Notes under the pieces: model-generated
The model's input: only the letters and a program-made list of their open reading frames with translations
Told to the model about the DNA's origin: nothing
Databases searched by the model: none
Made by a program: the position numbers and the translations under genes
NCBI GenBank assembly: GCA_023653075.1
Contig: JAMNXQ010000006.1
Span: 1 to 64,000 of the forward strand
Length of the DNA: 64,000 nt
Reading direction: 5' to 3'
Origin: Algoriphagus sp.
GTDB taxonomy: Bacteria; Bacteroidota; Bacteroidia; Cytophagales; Cyclobacteriaceae
In this document: positions 27,756 through 41,406 of the stretch, piece after piece
How the letters are laid out: each line of letters starts with the position of its first letter
Numbering within the stretch: position 1 is the stretch's first letter

Positions 27756-29402
27756 ATGGCCGAAATTATTAGAATGCCAAAAATGAGTGACACCATGGAA
27801 GAAGGTGTGATTGCATCCTGGTTGAAAAAAGTAGGTGATACTGTCAAGCCTGGAGACATTCTTGCAGAGGTGGAAACGGATAAAGCTACCATGGAGTTGG
27901 AATCTTACGAAGAGGGGATTTTGCTTTACGTAGGAGTAAAAGAAAAAGATTCGGTTCCTGTCAATGGAATCATCGCAATAATCGGAGAGAAGGGAGAAGG
28001 GTTCCAACATTTGCTGTCTGGAGCACCAGCAGATGCAACCAAAGCAGAGGAAGTAAGTCCGGCACTTACACCTTCACCAGCATCCGCAGTGGCTGATGTA
28101 AAAGCACCTGCAGCATCTACGGCATCTATTCCTGCCATCGTGGTGACCATGCCCAAAATGAGCGACACCATGCAAGAAGGAACCATCGCAACCTGGTTGA
28201 AAAAAGTAGGCGATCCCGTTAAATCGGGAGAAATCATAGCAGAAGTAGAGACGGATAAGGCCACTATGGAATTGGAGTCTTACGAAGATGGGGTCTTGTT
28301 ATACATTGGTATAGAAGCAGGAGGAAGTGTTCCTGTTGATGGAGTCATTGCCGTGATTGGAGAAAAAGGTGCCGATTACCAAAACCTTTTGGCAGCGCAT
28401 CAGGGTGGGGGATCTACGTCTGTCCCTGTCGAAGTAGCCAGTCCTGTAGCACTTGCAGCAGTTAGCGCATCTGCTCCAGAAGTACCTCAAGCACCAGTTG
28501 TAGCTGCAGTTGCTAGTTTGACTGGAAACGAGCGTGTTAAAGCATCTCCCCTTGCTAAGAAAATAGCCTCTGACAAAGGGGTAGATATCCGTCAAGTAGC
28601 CGGAAGTGGTGAAGGTGGACGTATTATTAAAAGAGATATTGAGACCTTTGTACCAGCTGCACCAGCCTCTAGTCCTCAAGTTTTCGCCTCCCAAGCAGTG
28701 GCTAGTCCAGTATTGGGTCAGGAAAGCTTCCGAGAAGAGAAGGTTTCGCAGATGCGTAAAACAATTGCCAAGCGATTGGCTGAAAGTAAATATTCGGCTC
28801 CTCACTTCTACTTGACCATGGAGATCAACATGGACAAGGCGATCGAGGCGAGAAAGAGCATGAACGAGTTTGGTACTGCAAAGATATCTTTCAATGACTT
28901 GGTCATTAAAGCATCTGCAGCGGCATTGCGTCAAAATCCTAAAGTAAACTCCAGCTGGTTGGGAGATAAGATCCGCTACAACGACCATATTCACATTGGA
29001 ATGGCGGTAGCAGTAGAGGAAGGCCTCTTGGTTCCAGTGATCCGCTTTGCAGATCAGCTGTCCTTGAGCCAGATTTCGAATCAAGCCAAATCTTTAGGCC
29101 AAAAGGCAAAAAATAAAGAGCTACAACCCAAGGATTGGGAAGGAAATACCTTTACCATCTCCAATTTGGGCATGTTTGGCATCGATGAATTTACCGCCAT
29201 CATCAATCCACCAGATGCCTGTATCTTGGCAGTGGGCGGAATTAAGGAAACGGTAATTGTGAAGGAAGGCCAACTGAAAGTGGGCAACGTGATGAAGGTG
29301 ACGCTTTCCTGCGACCACCGCGTGGTGGATGGAGCTGTAGGCTCGGCATTCCTTCAGACGCTGAAGGGCTTGTTGGAAGATCCAGTGCGTATCCTTATCT
29401 AA
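27756..29402 (+). CDS. pyruvate dehydrogenase E2 (dihydrolipoamide acetyltransferase), two lipoyl domains
   Basis: Two ETDKATMELES lipoyl motifs, E3-binding domain, SCDHRVVDGAVG catalytic motif. Confidence 0.95.
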   Translation: MAEIIRMPKMSDTMEEGVIASWLKKVGDTVKPGDILAEVETDKATMELESYEEGILLYVGVKEKDSVPVNGIIAIIGEKGEGFQHLLSGAPADATKAEEVSPALTPSPASAVADVKAPAASTASIPAIVVTMPKMSDTMQEGTIATWLKKVGDPVKSGEIIAEVETDKATMELESYEDGVLLYIGIEAGGSVPVDGVIAVIGEKGADYQNLLAAHQGGGSTSVPVEVASPVALAAVSASAPEVPQAPVVAAVASLTGNERVKASPLAKKIASDKGVDIRQVAGSGEGGRIIKRDIETFVPAAPASSPQVFASQAVASPVLGQESFREEKVSQMRKTIAKRLAESKYSAPHFYLTMEINMDKAIEARKSMNEFGTAKISFNDLVIKASAAALRQNPKVNSSWLGDKIRYNDHIHIGMAVAVEEGLLVPVIRFADQLSLSQISNQAKSLGQKAKNKELQPKDWEGNTFTISNLGMFGIDEFTAIINPPDACILAVGGIKETVIVKEGQLKVGNVMKVTLSCDHRVVDGAVGSAFLQTLKGLLEDPVRILI

Positions 29403-34526: not shown

Positions 34527-36458
34527 ATGTTATCCATCAGTAACCTCTCTTATTTTATCGGCGGTCGTGCATTGTACGAAAATGCCAACCTACACATCAA
34601 GCCCAAGGATAAAATTGGCCTAGTCGGTCAAAATGGCACGGGTAAATCTACCTTGCTGAAAATCATCCATGGAGATTACCTGCCTACTACAGGAGAGGTG
34701 CAAAAGGCCAAAGACTGCAGCCTTGGATTTTTGAATCAGGACTTGCTTTCTTACCAGTCGGATGACTCTATTTTGGAGGTGGCTTTAGCCGCATTCAAGG
34801 AGACCTTGGCGATCCAGGATGAAATCGACAAGGTCTTGAAATTGATGGAAACGGATTATTCGGAGGAAATTATAAACCGACTAGCCCATCTACAGGATCG
34901 ATTTGAATCCAATGAGGGCTATACGATCAAAGCCAAAGCAGAAGAGGTATTGGAGGGGATTGGATTTCAAACCAACGACCTACAAAAGCCATTACGCCAG
35001 TTTTCTGGAGGGTGGCGTATGCGCGTGATGCTCGCCAAATTACTTTTGGAAAAGCCAGCCTTGCTGATGCTCGATGAACCGACCAACCACCTGGATTTAC
35101 CTTCCATTCAATGGGTGGAGAATTACTTGAAAAATTACGAAGGTGCAGTAGTGGTAGTTTCCCACGACCAGACTTTCTTGGACAACTGCATTAGTACTAC
35201 GGTGGAAGTGGCTAACCAAACCCTGACTTCCTATCCCGGAAATTATTCCTTTTACAAGGAGGAGAAAAAATTGCGGATGGAGTTGCAGCAGAATGCCTAC
35301 GAAAATCAGCAGCAGCAAATCAAGCAGACGGAGCGCTTTATTGAACGGTTCAGAGCGAAGGCTACCAAATCCAATCAAGTCCAATCCCGGATTAAGGCCT
35401 TGGATCGCATGGAGCGGGTGCATGAGGTGGTGAATGACGAGGCTTTCGTAAACTTTAAGTTTAAATTTTCACAAAAATCGGGACGCGATGTGGTCACCAT
35501 GGATCAGGTTTCCAAGGCTTATGGGGACTTGACTATTTTGAAAAATACCACAGCCCGCATTGAACGAGGAGATAAAATTGCACTGATTGGAGCCAATGGA
35601 AAAGGAAAATCCACCTTGCTTCGGATTATTGCAGGTACGGAGGCACTAGCAGGAAAGCGTACGGAAGGGCATAATGTGATCAAGTCCTTCTTTGCACAGC
35701 ACCAATTGGAGGCCTTGACCTTAGACAATGAGATCATTCAAGAAATGTCTCAGGCGGGAAGTGGTAAAACAGAAATGGAGCTTCGTGGAGTTTTGGGATG
35801 TTTTCTTTTCTCAAATGAAGAGGTGTATAAAAAAATTAAAGTGCTGTCGGGTGGTGAGAAGTCTCGTGTGGCTCTTGCCAAAACGCTGATTTCTGAAGCC
35901 AATTTTCTATTGCTAGATGAACCAACCAATCATTTGGATTTTCAATCCGTGAATATTTTGATTCAGGCCTTGCAGCAGTACGAGGGTACTTTTATCACCG
36001 TTTCCCACGATCGACACTTTATCAAGGGAGTAGCCAATAAGATCTGGTACATTGAGCAGCATGAAATCAAAGAGTACCCAGGGACTTACGAAGAGTATGA
36101 GTTTTGGAGAAGTCAACAGGTAGATCAGCTGGCTGCAGCACCCGTTCAAAAACTAGTCAAGGCCGCGGTGATGGCTCCATCTAAAAGTAAAGAAGAAACT
36201 CAGCAAGCCAAAAAGGAATTGAAGAAGCTGGAGGATCAATTACAAAATATCGAAAAAGAAATTCACCAATTGGAAGTACAAAAACAGGATTTGGAAGCCA
36301 AATTGGCTGAACCTTCCCTCTACGGAAATGAGGTGGAGGCTCAGAAAATACAGAAAAGCCACCAGCAAGTTCAGGCATCACTTGAAAAAGTAAATGCCAC
36401 TTGGGAGCAGTTGGTGGATCAAATCTCCTCCTTACAGCAACAAGTGACCCAGGTTTAA
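34527..36458 (+). CDS. ABC-F family ATPase
   Basis: Two Walker A motifs (GQNGTGKST, GANGKGKST), LSGGEKSR, LLDEPTNHLD; C-terminal coiled coil. Confidence 0.95.
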   Translation: MLSISNLSYFIGGRALYENANLHIKPKDKIGLVGQNGTGKSTLLKIIHGDYLPTTGEVQKAKDCSLGFLNQDLLSYQSDDSILEVALAAFKETLAIQDEIDKVLKLMETDYSEEIINRLAHLQDRFESNEGYTIKAKAEEVLEGIGFQTNDLQKPLRQFSGGWRMRVMLAKLLLEKPALLMLDEPTNHLDLPSIQWVENYLKNYEGAVVVVSHDQTFLDNCISTTVEVANQTLTSYPGNYSFYKEEKKLRMELQQNAYENQQQQIKQTERFIERFRAKATKSNQVQSRIKALDRMERVHEVVNDEAFVNFKFKFSQKSGRDVVTMDQVSKAYGDLTILKNTTARIERGDKIALIGANGKGKSTLLRIIAGTEALAGKRTEGHNVIKSFFAQHQLEALTLDNEIIQEMSQAGSGKTEMELRGVLGCFLFSNEEVYKKIKVLSGGEKSRVALAKTLISEANFLLLDEPTNHLDFQSVNILIQALQQYEGTFITVSHDRHFIKGVANKIWYIEQHEIKEYPGTYEEYEFWRSQQVDQLAAAPVQKLVKAAVMAPSKSKEETQQAKKELKKLEDQLQNIEKEIHQLEVQKQDLEAKLAEPSLYGNEVEAQKIQKSHQQVQASLEKVNATWEQLVDQISSLQQQVTQV

Positions 36459-36472
36459 CTTAGAATAGGCAC

Positions 36473-37741
36473 ATGAAAGCTCAGGCACTGCTCTTATTTT
36501 TTCTCGTTCTCTCATTTAAGGGAAATGCACAGGTGCTTGAGGACAAGGTTTATGCAGACCATATCCTTTCGGTACGAATGTTTCCTCAAGGGGGAGATGT
36601 AGAAAGCCAGCTGAATGCGCCTGTAGTTTCTTTGTCTGATTCCAAATCCTTGGTGGTTTGGTTTGATGATGTATCCTTTGATCCGGAGTTGTATACGGCC
36701 AAACTGGTTCACTGCGATACAGATTGGAAGAAGTCGGGATTACGGGATACTGACTTTTCTCTAGCATTCAATGAGTACACTTTATCGGACTATGCCTATT
36801 CGGTCAATACGCGGATGCCTTACATTCGGTATTCCTTTACCCTTCCTCGGGTAAGTAAATCCGGGAATTACCTACTTAAGGTGTACAAAAACCGGGATGA
36901 AAATGCAGTCATTTTTACGAGGCGATTTATGGTGGTAGAGAATAGTGCTGCTGTAGCAGCTCAAGTGGTGCCCCCTGCTCAGACCGAGGATCGCCGCACT
37001 TTGCAGCAAATCAATACCTCAGTCAATTACAGTAATCTGGAAGTGATTGATCCTCAAGTACAAATCAAGGTGGTAATTCGTCAGAACCAGCGTTGGGATA
37101 ATGTTAAAGTTTTGAACAAGCCCACCTTTTTGAACCAAAATTCCAAGCTTCTTCGGTACGAACCTTTTCAGGGGGAAAGTACCTTCCGTGCTGGAAACGA
37201 GTTTCGGTTTATCGACTTACGCTTTATCCGTGCCACAGGAGTCAATGTAGCCTCTGTGAAGGTAGAAGAAACTCTGGTGACTGCGGAAGCACGAGTGGAT
37301 TTACCAAGGCCAGGTGGAGCCTATGCACAATATTTAGATCTCAATGGGTTTTATGTGGTTCAAACGAATGATCGACCAGGGGGAGACCCTGAAGTAGAAA
37401 GTGAATATGTATTTACCACTTTTTACCTCGATGATGTACCAGGAAAAAACATCAAGTTGATGGGAGCGCTCAGTCAATGGGGAAAAGCACCTGAAGCGAC
37501 GATGGTGTACGATCCCAAAAAGCGCTTGTATTCCACTTCGCTTTTAGTGAAGCAAGGGTGGTACGATTACCAATTTGCTTATGCAAACGAAGATGGCTCC
37601 CTTGATTTTGAATCCTTGGAAGGAAGTCACTTCCAAACCGAGAATGAATACGAGGTATTTGTGTACTACAGGGGTCTAGGTTCTCGATACGATCAGTTGG
37701 TAGGTTACGTGTACTTGCAGCCGAATAAGCGAAGGCTATAA
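36473..37741 (+). CDS. DUF5103 / type IX secretion plug-like protein
   Basis: Signal peptide; YADHILSVRMFP, LVHCDTDWKKSGL, DYAYSVNTRMPYIRYSFTLP. Confidence 0.82.
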   Translation: MKAQALLLFFLVLSFKGNAQVLEDKVYADHILSVRMFPQGGDVESQLNAPVVSLSDSKSLVVWFDDVSFDPELYTAKLVHCDTDWKKSGLRDTDFSLAFNEYTLSDYAYSVNTRMPYIRYSFTLPRVSKSGNYLLKVYKNRDENAVIFTRRFMVVENSAAVAAQVVPPAQTEDRRTLQQINTSVNYSNLEVIDPQVQIKVVIRQNQRWDNVKVLNKPTFLNQNSKLLRYEPFQGESTFRAGNEFRFIDLRFIRATGVNVASVKVEETLVTAEARVDLPRPGGAYAQYLDLNGFYVVQTNDRPGGDPEVESEYVFTTFYLDDVPGKNIKLMGALSQWGKAPEATMVYDPKKRLYSTSLLVKQGWYDYQFAYANEDGSLDFESLEGSHFQTENEYEVFVYYRGLGSRYDQLVGYVYLQPNKRRL

Positions 37742-37762: not shown

Positions 37763-37792
37763 AACCCCAAAAAGAAGGCTCTTTTTGGGGTT
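37763..37792. terminator. intrinsic terminator between convergent genes
   Basis: aaccccaaaaag aaggct ctttttggggtt. Confidence 0.75.
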
Positions 37793-37815: not shown

Positions 37816-38706
37816 TTAATACTCCCCTTTGGAGGCTTCAGATTCTTCTTCTGTTGGCGCTACATTTTGGCGAACTCGTTCGCCAGCAGCTTTGTAGGGC
37901 ACGAATCCTTCCCTTTTGAACTTGTAAGGAGTAGTTTTAGTATCAGCAGGATGGGTAGCCAAGTCCATCATACCAAAACCTTTGTGGGTAAAGGCGCCTA
38001 GACCACATTTGAAAACAAAATCTTGTACCTCAGGTGCAGCATAAAGCGTGAAGGGTAACGTGTAGCCTCTCACCTCGTATTTTACATCAAGGTCATAGAC
38101 TGCGTAGATTCGCGCAAATTTTTTCTGTTGTTCTTTCAACTTATTTACATAAACCATGTCTGGTACCACCTGGAATTTAAAGAAGGATTCCATTTGCTCT
38201 GCGGTATACCACCCTGATTTTTCCATGCGCGTGAGCGTAGATTCATATAGTAAATCAGAGAACTCGTCGCTATCAGGATTGATAAATCGCTTCCCCGCTT
38301 CTTCATTGAAGGCTGGCGTGATGAGCACCAAAGGAGAGATGCAGACAAACTTATTGGAAACATCCAAGATAGGTTCGGTCTCTAGCTCGGTGTATTCTGG
38401 GGAAAGAATCAAGTTGCCCAACTCAATTTTTGGGGTCGCAAATACTTGCTCAAGCAAGTAATCGATAAACTCCTCACTCTGAGAGGAAAGGACGAGGGTG
38501 ACTAGGCTGGAGTAATAGTGCAAACCACTACGACTCACTTTTGTTTGTCCTTTTAATCCAGAGAAATTGAAGAAATTATAGTTGAAGAATTCCTCCTTTC
38601 CTCCTTTGACAATGAGTCCCTTGAGGAATTGTGCCAGAATGTACTGGTGGTGAAAAGGCAAAAATGAGCCTTTATTTTTTAAAGAAAATATGATGCGTAC
38701 TCTCAC
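37816..38706 (-). CDS. cas6: Cas6-like CRISPR RNA endoribonuclease (solitary)
   Basis: GTG start gives MRVRIIFSLKNKGSFLPFHHQYILAQFLKGLI; FNFSGLKGQ, LGNLILSPEYTELET, C-terminal Gly-rich CGLGAFTHKGFGMMDL. 296 aa. Confidence 0.82.
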   Translation of the reverse strand: MRVRIIFSLKNKGSFLPFHHQYILAQFLKGLIVKGGKEEFFNYNFFNFSGLKGQTKVSRSGLHYYSSLVTLVLSSQSEEFIDYLLEQVFATPKIELGNLILSPEYTELETEPILDVSNKFVCISPLVLITPAFNEEAGKRFINPDSDEFSDLLYESTLTRMEKSGWYTAEQMESFFKFQVVPDMVYVNKLKEQQKKFARIYAVYDLDVKYEVRGYTLPFTLYAAPEVQDFVFKCGLGAFTHKGFGMMDLATHPADTKTTPYKFKREGFVPYKAAGERVRQNVAPTEEESEASKGEY

Positions 38707-38804
38707 GGGTTTGAAAAATAAAATGAAACAATCCAATTCTTAGTCTTGCCAAGCCTTGGTAATTAAATAACTAAAGTAAAATTACACTAATTTTTTATCA
38801 AAAC

Positions 38805-39902
38805 TCAAACATTGAACCTAAAATGCATGATGTCCCCATCTTGAACCACGTATTCTTTGCCTTCGATCGAGATTTTACCATTTTCTCTACACACTGCCTC
38901 GCTCTTAAATTGTTTGTAATCTGCAAGGCGGATGACCTCCGCTTTGATAAATCCTCGTTCAAAGTCCGTATGAATCACTCCAGCGGCTTGTGGTGCTTTC
39001 CAACCTTTACGGATCGTCCAAGCACGAACCTCCTGCACACCAGCAGTAAAGTAAGTGATTAAGTTGAGAAGGGTATAGGCACCATAAATCAAGCGGTTAA
39101 GACCACTTTCATTCAATCCGTATTCACTTAGAAACATGGCTTTTTCTTCTGGGTCGTCAAATTCGGCAATTTGGGATTCGATGGCCGCACAAAGGACGAT
39201 AACCTCAGCATTTTCTTCTTTTACTTTTTCCCGAAGTTGGGTTACAAAAGCATTTCCTGTGTGAATGCTTGCCTCGTCGACATTGGCCACATAGATCACT
39301 GGCTTGATCGTAAGGAGTTGAAGGTCACGAACGGCATCTAGATCTTCCTTGTCTACTTCGATGGCTCGTGCATTTAGTCCTGTAGTCAAGCCATCTTTAA
39401 ATTGGAGCAAAGTTTCCAATTCACGCTTGGCTTTAGCATCTCCAGATTTGGCCACCTTTTCGATCCGCTGAATCTTTTTTTCGACAGATTCCAAATCCTT
39501 CAACTGCAATTCGGTGTCGATGACTTCTTTGTCAAAAATCGGGTCTACGCCACCAGCGACGTGAACGATGTTGTTATCCTCAAAGCATCGGATGACGTGA
39601 ATGATGGCGTCCACTTCACGAATGTTGGCCAAAAACTTATTTCCCAGTCCTTCGCCTTTTGAGGCACCTTTTACAAGTCCAGCAATATCTACAAACTCGA
39701 TGATAGTAGGAACTACACGTTGTGGATTGACCAAGGCTTCCAATTCCTGCAAGCGTGCATCTGGAACGGAAACTACTCCCACATTGGGTTCGATGGTACA
39801 AAAAGGAAAGTTTGCTGCTTCAGCCTTTGCGCTAGAAAGCGAATTAAACAAGGTAGATTTGCCCACATTGGGGAGACCTACTATGCCACATTGTAATGCC
39901 AT
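38805..39902 (-). CDS. ychF: redox-regulated ATPase YchF
   Basis: [57 protein letters not shown]. Confidence 0.97.
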
Positions 39903-40996
39903 TAAGTCGTTGCTTTAATTTTAAATATTTTGTAGGACTTGTATCCTTTGTAAAATTCCATAACCGATACTCTGAAAATGGTGTAAACGGGTATGGCAAA
40001 AATCATCCCTAAAATTCCTGCGATTTTTGCACCGGCAAAGATAATAACAAAAATTTCAAGAGGATGCGCTTTTACGGATTTGGAAAAAATAAGCGGTTGC
40101 AGGAGTACATTATCCGTAATCTGGACCACTGCAAATACAGAAATGATTTTAAAAAGTAGGAAGCTGTAGTCACTGTCTACCGTATAGTCACCTGTGGATA
40201 CACCTACGATAATGCCAAAAGCAGTTCCTAAAATCGGCCCCGCATAGGGGATAAGATTAGCAATTGCTGCAAAGAGGGCTATAGTCAGTGCATAGTCCAC
40301 GCCTGCCAGGGTAAGTCCAGAAGCAGCGAGCAAGAAAATAGCCAATACTTGAAGTAGAAGTCCAAATAGGTAATTGGAAAGCAATTTTTCGACCTTGGTA
40401 AAGGTCGCTACCGATAACTCAAAATAGGTATTTGGAATGAGATTCAGGAGATTTCTGCGAAGCAGGCCATTTTCTAATAATAAGAAAAAAGTAATGAAGG
40501 CGATGGCCATGGTGCCAATAAACACACTACTTGTCACCGCAATTGCATCAGAAATGAATCCGCCGATGTCAAATTTTTTGAGAACTTCTTGCACAGACAT
40601 TCTGAGTTCCTCAAGAAGGATTCCCTTTTTATTTTCAATGAGTTGGTACTTCATCAAAAACCGTTCTAGTTTTTCTAAGGGAACTTCTAGTTGCAGGTAA
40701 ATACTCTCCAAATCCAACTCACTCAAAAGAATAAGTTGGCGATTGATTAGTGGGAAAAATAGGAGTCCCAATAAAAATACAATGGAAATAACTACCCCAT
40801 ATGAGCCAAGAATGGCAATTCCTCTTGGAATATGCTGTCCTACGATGTGTACTTCATTTATTCTATTGGTCAAGGGACGAAGCAGCGCAGCAAGAATCAA
40901 AGAAACCACCAGGTACAATGAAATAGAAGAAAAATACCAACCAAAAACGAGGAAGGTGAGAAAGAAAAGAATGAGGTAGATGAAAAACCGTTGCAT
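39902..40996 (-). CDS. AI-2E family transporter
   Basis: Multi-[36 protein letters not shown]; start at MQRFF preferred. Confidence 0.88.
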
Positions 40997-41076
40997 GGTA
41001 GTAAAAAGAAAAGGAGGCAGAAGCCTCCTCAAATATATTGGAATTAGAACGTTATCCCCAATGAATTACCGCTGGA

Positions 41077-41406
41077 TTATTCCCAACGCAAGTCATTATT
41101 AACTTCGTTCTCAGATTCTTCATTCTCAAACTGCTCAAAATCGAAGTCAGGAAGCAAATCGATTTTCACATGATCTACGGCTTCATTCAATGCATTGACA
41201 AATTTGAAGAAATCCTCCTTATACAAAAAGATTTTGTGCTTCTCATAACTGAAGCTATCGCCGTCTGTTCTTCGCTTGCTCTCCGTAATGGTCAAGTAAT
41301 AATCGTTGCCACGGGTTGATTTGATGTCAAAAAAATAAGTTCTTTTTCCTGCCTTAACTTTTTTAGAGAAAATTTCATCTCTATCGTATCCTCGGTGATC
41401 TTCCAA
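41077..41406 (-). CDS. DUF3276 / PUR-family nucleic-acid-binding protein
   Basis: IFSKKVKAGKRTYFFDIKSTRGNDYYLTITESKR...HKIFLYKEDFFKF. Confidence 0.88.
   Translation of the reverse strand: MEDHRGYDRDEIFSKKVKAGKRTYFFDIKSTRGNDYYLTITESKRRTDGDSFSYEKHKIFLYKEDFFKFVNALNEAVDHVKIDLLPDFDFEQFENEESENEVNNDLRWE

Follow-up and report, generated by a model that had tools for sequence, protein, structure and literature searches.

The 64-kb window analysed here, the whole stretch of 64,000 nucleotides taken from an Algoriphagus metagenome-assembled genome (MAG), encodes a Cas6 protein that is retained irrespective of CRISPR type or CRISPR-marker presence. The gene, core cas6, is normally a single-copy chromosomal gene of the Cytophagales with a conserved housekeeping neighbourhood, and we consider it likely that it is a vertically inherited, exapted Cas6 standing outside CRISPR immunity. 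Our best reading is that the protein acts on a host RNA, which it may bind without cutting.

The window gene is a Cas6 by sequence

The gene and the flanking features discussed below are as follows.

34527..36458, plus strand: ABC-F ATPase gene, member of the ancestral block
36473..37741, plus strand: convergent neighbour downstream of cas6, which we take to be a DUF5103 (“T9SS plug-like”) gene
37765..37790, no strand assigned: inverted repeat CCCCAAAAAGA..TCTTTTTGGGG in the gap where cas6 and DUF5103 converge, read from the sequence
37816..38706, minus strand: core (CRISPR-independent) Cas6 homologue, 296 aa, GTG start, with profile matches
38776..38806, minus strand: promoter-like element of cas6, box TAATTTTAC plus upstream TTTTG, from an alignment of related species’ upstream regions
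38805..39902, minus strand: ychF, upstream neighbour co-directional with cas6, present in 70 of 70 related loci and in several deep Cytophagales families
39902..41032, minus strand: AI-2E family transporter gene, member of the ancestral block
41077..41406, minus strand: DUF3276 gene, member of the ancestral block and presumably of the nucleic-acid-binding PUR family

A first-pass annotation of this DNA had called a Cas6-like frame at 37816-38706, and that call is exact: the frame lies on the minus strand, and profile searches with Pfam, NCBIfam and PADLOC models, together with comparison to PDB sequences, support it. The GTG start aligns with an ATG at the same residue in many relatives. Curated Cas6 models from all three collections match the window protein, namely Pfam PF01881 (Cas_Cas6_C) with E=5.6e-21 and 76 bits against a cut-off of 23, NCBIfam TIGR01877 with 66 bits against a cut-off of 58.65, and the PADLOC Cas6b profile with 3e-27 over residues 1-249. 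All 23 of the 23 order-wide core Cas6 members tested match both the Pfam and the NCBIfam Cas6 families. When the core-family profile was searched against PDB sequences the best match was 5YI6 (8.7e-14), followed by 3UFC, 3QJP/3QJJ and then PfuCas6 3PKM/3I4H, and a profile-profile alignment with Cas6 proteins from CRISPR operons of the same order spanned 243 columns with a probability of 99.4. The window gene is a Cas6 by sequence over almost its entire length. Its scores above the curated cut-offs and its glycine-rich RAMP loop point to membership in the Cas6 family by descent, and the protein is predicted to adopt the double RRM-like Cas6 fold. An AlphaFold model was of low confidence (pLDDT 43.6) because its input alignment contained near-identical sequences from close relatives only.

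The canonical catalytic residues are missing from the core family

The catalytic residues of PfuCas6 are Tyr31, His46 and Lys52 (PMC3652601). Mapped onto the core family by reading the HMM alignment, Tyr31 corresponds to core residue 29, which is variable order-wide (K, E, N, Q, D, S, M, T or R), His46 falls in a stretch that is missing because the His helix is deleted, and Lys52 corresponds to core residue 44, which is also variable. In Cas6 proteins from CRISPR operons of the same order, Tyr29 and His44 are invariant at the corresponding places. The residues that are invariant across the order in the core family are R2, R4, H20, K52-G53-Q54, K195-K196-F197, R199, E211 and R213-G214-Y215, along with the glycine-rich loop; the tail after residue 250 varies freely. 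The C-terminal RAMP loop G-x-G..GFG, noticed in the first-pass annotation, is kept, with G235, G237, G243 and G245 invariant.

Loss of the triad is no proof of lost cleavage, since a Cas6 that has no His can still cut: SsoCas6, which has no catalytic His, cuts using basic residues, and such enzymes have been proposed to be chaperones as much as enzymes (PMC3652601). Loss of the catalytic Tyr and His and deletion of the His helix would also suit a protein that has kept nothing of Cas6 but the fold, as a structural or protein-interaction domain, and is no longer an RNase or RNA binder. We regard this as unlikely, given that the glycine-rich loop is retained and that 7 of the 42 invariant core residues are Arg or Lys.

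Core cas6 is retained with and without CRISPR markers

An orthologue with 84-97% identity is found in 60 of 61 genomes of the genus, the exception being a fragmented MAG that is 81% complete. We then surveyed 214 Cytophagales genomes, filtered to at least 95% completeness with the source genome (G000) exempt, and core Cas6 was present in 111 of them at 265-437 bits, including 37 of the 39 genomes of its own family; these counts come from related genomes and are not phylogenetically independent events.

The source genome is a 2.18-Mb MAG that is 67% complete. Its sole detected Cas1 (G000:C61:71543-72226) lies inside a complete type II-C locus (L071 7147-14365, G000:C61) with cas9 (1346 aa), cas1, cas2 and 23 copies of a 47-bp repeat with a 77-bp period; the listed cas2 frame overlaps cas1. 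Type II CRISPR is not known to use Cas6. The window gene is the sole Cas6_C gene found, and RAMP or Cas5 genes were not found in this 67%-complete assembly. The absent third of the MAG may hide a class 1 locus, and the argument for independence from CRISPR therefore rests mainly on relatives.

Among these, class 1 markers (counted by marker genes alone, namely high-scoring Cas1, RAMPs and Cas5) were found in 39 of 111 carriers and 30 of 103 non-carriers (p=0.38). There are 47 carriers with no Cas1, RAMP or Cas5; the conservation check in CRISPR-less relatives that the first-pass annotation proposed thus came out positive for genomes free of these markers. No Cas3-HD match over the cut-off was found in those 47; there were weak matches, most of them to frames 520-560 aa long, and these we take for HD domains of RNase Y. 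In 43 of the 47, Cas6_C is represented by the core protein alone. The other marker-free carriers, G086, G490, G567 and G590, have a second Cas6_C and may hold decayed or unusual CRISPR loci. Within the genus, Cas1 was found in 17 of 61 genomes, and one single-contig genome (G033) has core cas6 and no Cas1.

The proposal that the gene serves a distant CRISPR locus, one of two offered in the first-pass annotation, did not survive these data. There is precedent in principle for a Cas6 that serves unlinked arrays in trans, and core Cas6 could process pre-crRNA for unlinked class 1 loci; 39 of the carriers do bear class 1 markers, and in G046, G063, G075, G082, G094, G096, G504, G514, G516 and G540 the core protein is the sole Cas6_C despite the presence of RAMP genes. 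Against this, class 1 markers are not significantly commoner in carriers, and orthologues stand in dozens of genomes that lack them. The class 1 loci of the six carriers tested (G046, G063, G075, G504, G508 and G516) have a Cas6b of their own, matching PF17262/PF17955, with G082, G094, G096, G514 and G540 falling outside that test, and the genus has type I-like loci that include a Cas6 bearing the catalytic Tyr and His. The source genome shows only type II-C with its sole cas1, and the core family has lost the canonical catalytic residues. We rejected service to a distant CRISPR locus on the co-occurrence data and on the presence of dedicated Cas6b or Cas6 in the tested class 1 loci, and we hold the trans-acting explanation to be very unlikely. 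The locus of G046 (L156 4739-18758), from the same genus, is type III-like with Cas6b, RAMPs and Cas1, and the gene after its cas1 matches BT4734-like_N at the N-terminus.

When type II-like Cas1 is included, any cas marker is found in 64 of 111 carriers versus 32 of 103 non-carriers, an excess that we attribute to clade structure and that led us to consider whether core Cas6 assists type II-C systems, for example in repeat or tracrRNA handling. Genomes with only type II-like Cas1 make up 25 of the 111 carriers and 2 of the 103 non-carriers, and the source genome is itself type II-C. This excess is probably confounded by clade, most carrier genomes of the genus have no Cas1, and type II systems are served by tracrRNA and RNase III; we judge such assistance to be more improbable still.

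Core cas6 has a probable ancestral slot among housekeeping genes

The first-pass annotation had placed the gene between a T9SS plug-like gene and ychF and had seen no further cas gene or repeat-spacer array in the 64 kb, and both observations hold. An array scan of the 64-kb window was empty, while the same script recovered the array of this genome’s CRISPR locus as a positive control, and core cas6 had no cas genes for neighbours here or in the loci examined from relatives, the one exception being a Cas1 in G094 at a distance of about 9 kb. In that case (G094:C1:13982-24481, L162) unrelated genes intervene and we take the proximity as coincidence. A 146-bp repeat mentioned in the first-pass annotation was not recovered, either as a direct repeat of at least 60 nt or as a tandem repeat. 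The window does contain two direct repeats of 234 nt (27774-28007 and 28149-28382) that are 74% alike and 375 nt apart.

The ancestral block has the order DUF3276 - (AI-2E) - ychF - cas6 - convergent DUF5103 - ABC-F. It is found whole or in part in families f1, f5, f7, f10, f16, f17, f18 and f20, and core cas6 is relocated in other families. In all 70 close loci (the genus and close allies) ychF lies 74-105 bp upstream of core cas6 in the same direction. A box TAnnTTTT(G/A) upstream of core cas6 is conserved across Algoriphagus and its allies and is putatively a promoter, which we take to be of the Bacteroidota type; no conserved hairpin that could be autoregulatory or a substrate was seen by eye in the ychF-cas6 gap, which holds only this promoter-like box and an AT-rich leader. 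The inverted repeat at 37765..37790 is a probable bidirectional terminator of cas6 and DUF5103. An Rfam scan of the window returned only a SAM riboswitch (RF00162, 60908-61008, plus strand, 79 bits), far from cas6.

A maximum-likelihood tree separated 29 core proteins from six CRISPR-operon Cas6 proteins by a 100/99 branch. The core clade largely tracks host families and inheritance is vertical: families f1, f2, f4, f5, f17, f19 and f20 are recovered, and f9 and f16 are not. Core cas6 is under very strong purifying selection. Across the 70 close loci, median identity to the window protein is 87.7%, compared with 86.0% for ychF and 80.8% for ABC-F, and dN/dS is 0.015 against the nearest relative, synonymous sites being saturated against nearly all others. 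Two genomes of its own family, G641 and G619, lack core cas6; the rest of the block is intact and ychF directly faces DUF5103. The gene is also absent from the sampled members of f11 and f14, where parts of the block remain. We read this pattern of a block intact or partial minus cas6 as loss from an ancestral slot. Sampled f12 members are also without it, and these losses together indicate that core cas6 is dispensable in some contexts.

In a sample of 395 genomes from across the phylum, the 9 genomes with strong matches all belong to the gene’s own family, and none of the other 386 scored above 92 bits. Scanning GTDB species genomes with two motifs found 405 stretches that encode a relative of core Cas6; the best 80 of the 405 are mostly from Algoriphagus, Belliella, Aquiflexum and other Cyclobacteriaceae. 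Four MAG records (L079 and L083-L085) titled “Spirosoma fluviale” have loci 95-96% protein-identical to this Algoriphagus gene, and their names look wrong. Core Cas6 was absent from phage records, and one plasmid record has it, a 602-kb non-mobilizable Bernardetia replicon in which the gene is annotated “CRISPR-associated endoribonuclease Cas6” and flanked by methylmalonyl-CoA mutase and oxidoreductase genes. A defence factor independent of CRISPR, such as one that binds phage RNA, would fit a family of origin made up of defence proteins, and is the least probable explanation that we considered, with ychF-like constraint unlike arms-race evolution, a conserved housekeeping neighbourhood and this near absence from phage and plasmid records all against it.

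A possible role in host RNA metabolism

The second proposal of the first-pass annotation, a domesticated RNase that processes host RNA hairpins, divides into two parts: domestication is strongly supported, and RNase action on hairpins is only inferred, the canonical catalytic Tyr and His being missing. We infer RNA binding from the family, the glycine-rich loop and the basic invariant residues. The loop and residues R2, R4, K52, K195, K196, R199 and R213, with H20 and E211, would hold a specific host RNA, and the part held may be a short stem or a single-stranded segment. Core Cas6 could then be a chaperone or binding protein; alternatively it could cut slowly and site-specifically, using a non-canonical active site of basic residues like that of SsoCas6 (PMC3652601). 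The sole hint to a pathway is the company of ychF, ABC-F and DUF3276, and translation-linked RNA would, as a guess from these conserved neighbours, be the first place to look. We give about an even chance to an order-wide housekeeping ribonucleoprotein in which the exapted Cas6 would mature or chaperone a conserved host RNA of the Cytophagales and would have either a new active site or no active site.

Cas6 proteins have been treated as parts of CRISPR systems, and here one has become a cellular gene conserved across hundreds of species. Because the NCBI equivalog model names it “CRISPR-associated endoribonuclease Cas6”, a cellular gene is filed under immunity and will swell the tally of orphan cas genes. 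If it handles a host RNA, the case shows general RNA metabolism recruiting a protein from a family that processes crRNA, and core Cas6 would offer a handle for finding new bacterial RNA. A search confined to open-access papers found none that describes a Cas6 working independently of CRISPR and none that discusses Cas6 in Cytophagales or Algoriphagus; a host-RNA role, if true, would as far as we found be the first CRISPR-independent role for Cas6.

Comparison with known systems

Core Cas6 shares with canonical PfuCas6 (TIGR01877/PF01881), which acts in type I/III crRNA maturation, homology over most of its length, the glycine-rich loop and a P-F/Y-x-H-Q motif. It differs in having no cas context and no conserved counterparts of Tyr31, His46 and Lys52, and in being vertically inherited under housekeeping-level constraint. 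The Cas6 paralogue PfuCas6nc (3UFC) and the related PH0350 (3QJJ/3QJP) are among its best PDB sequence matches. Both are archaeal proteins from hosts with CRISPR, whereas core Cas6 is bacterial, order-wide and retained in genomes without CRISPR markers. 3UFC has been called non-catalytic (PMC3652601). SsoCas6 (PMC3652601) is a precedent for a His-less Cas6 that works through basic residues, possibly as a chaperone, but it is an active crRNA enzyme, and its key lysines need not correspond to the core invariants. The class 1 Cas6b proteins (PF17955/PF17262) of the same order share a superfamily and genomes with core Cas6, but form another subfamily and lie within cas operons.

Linkage to cas genes or arrays, co-occurrence with type I/III systems and a canonical active site, which mark the CRISPR-associated Cas6 class, were not observed for core Cas6, the last point not being decisive since SsoCas6 also lacks the His. 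The gene lies outside cas loci, is inherited vertically and occurs in CRISPR-marker-free genomes, as expected of a solo cas gene. The closest conceptual precedent is solo-Cas4 (PMC5704561), a cas-family gene that is found outside CRISPR loci, is mainly vertical, occurs in CRISPR-less genomes and branches separately from its CRISPR counterpart; solo-Cas4 is a widespread nuclease of the adaptation module, whereas the solo Cas6 described here is specific to one order.
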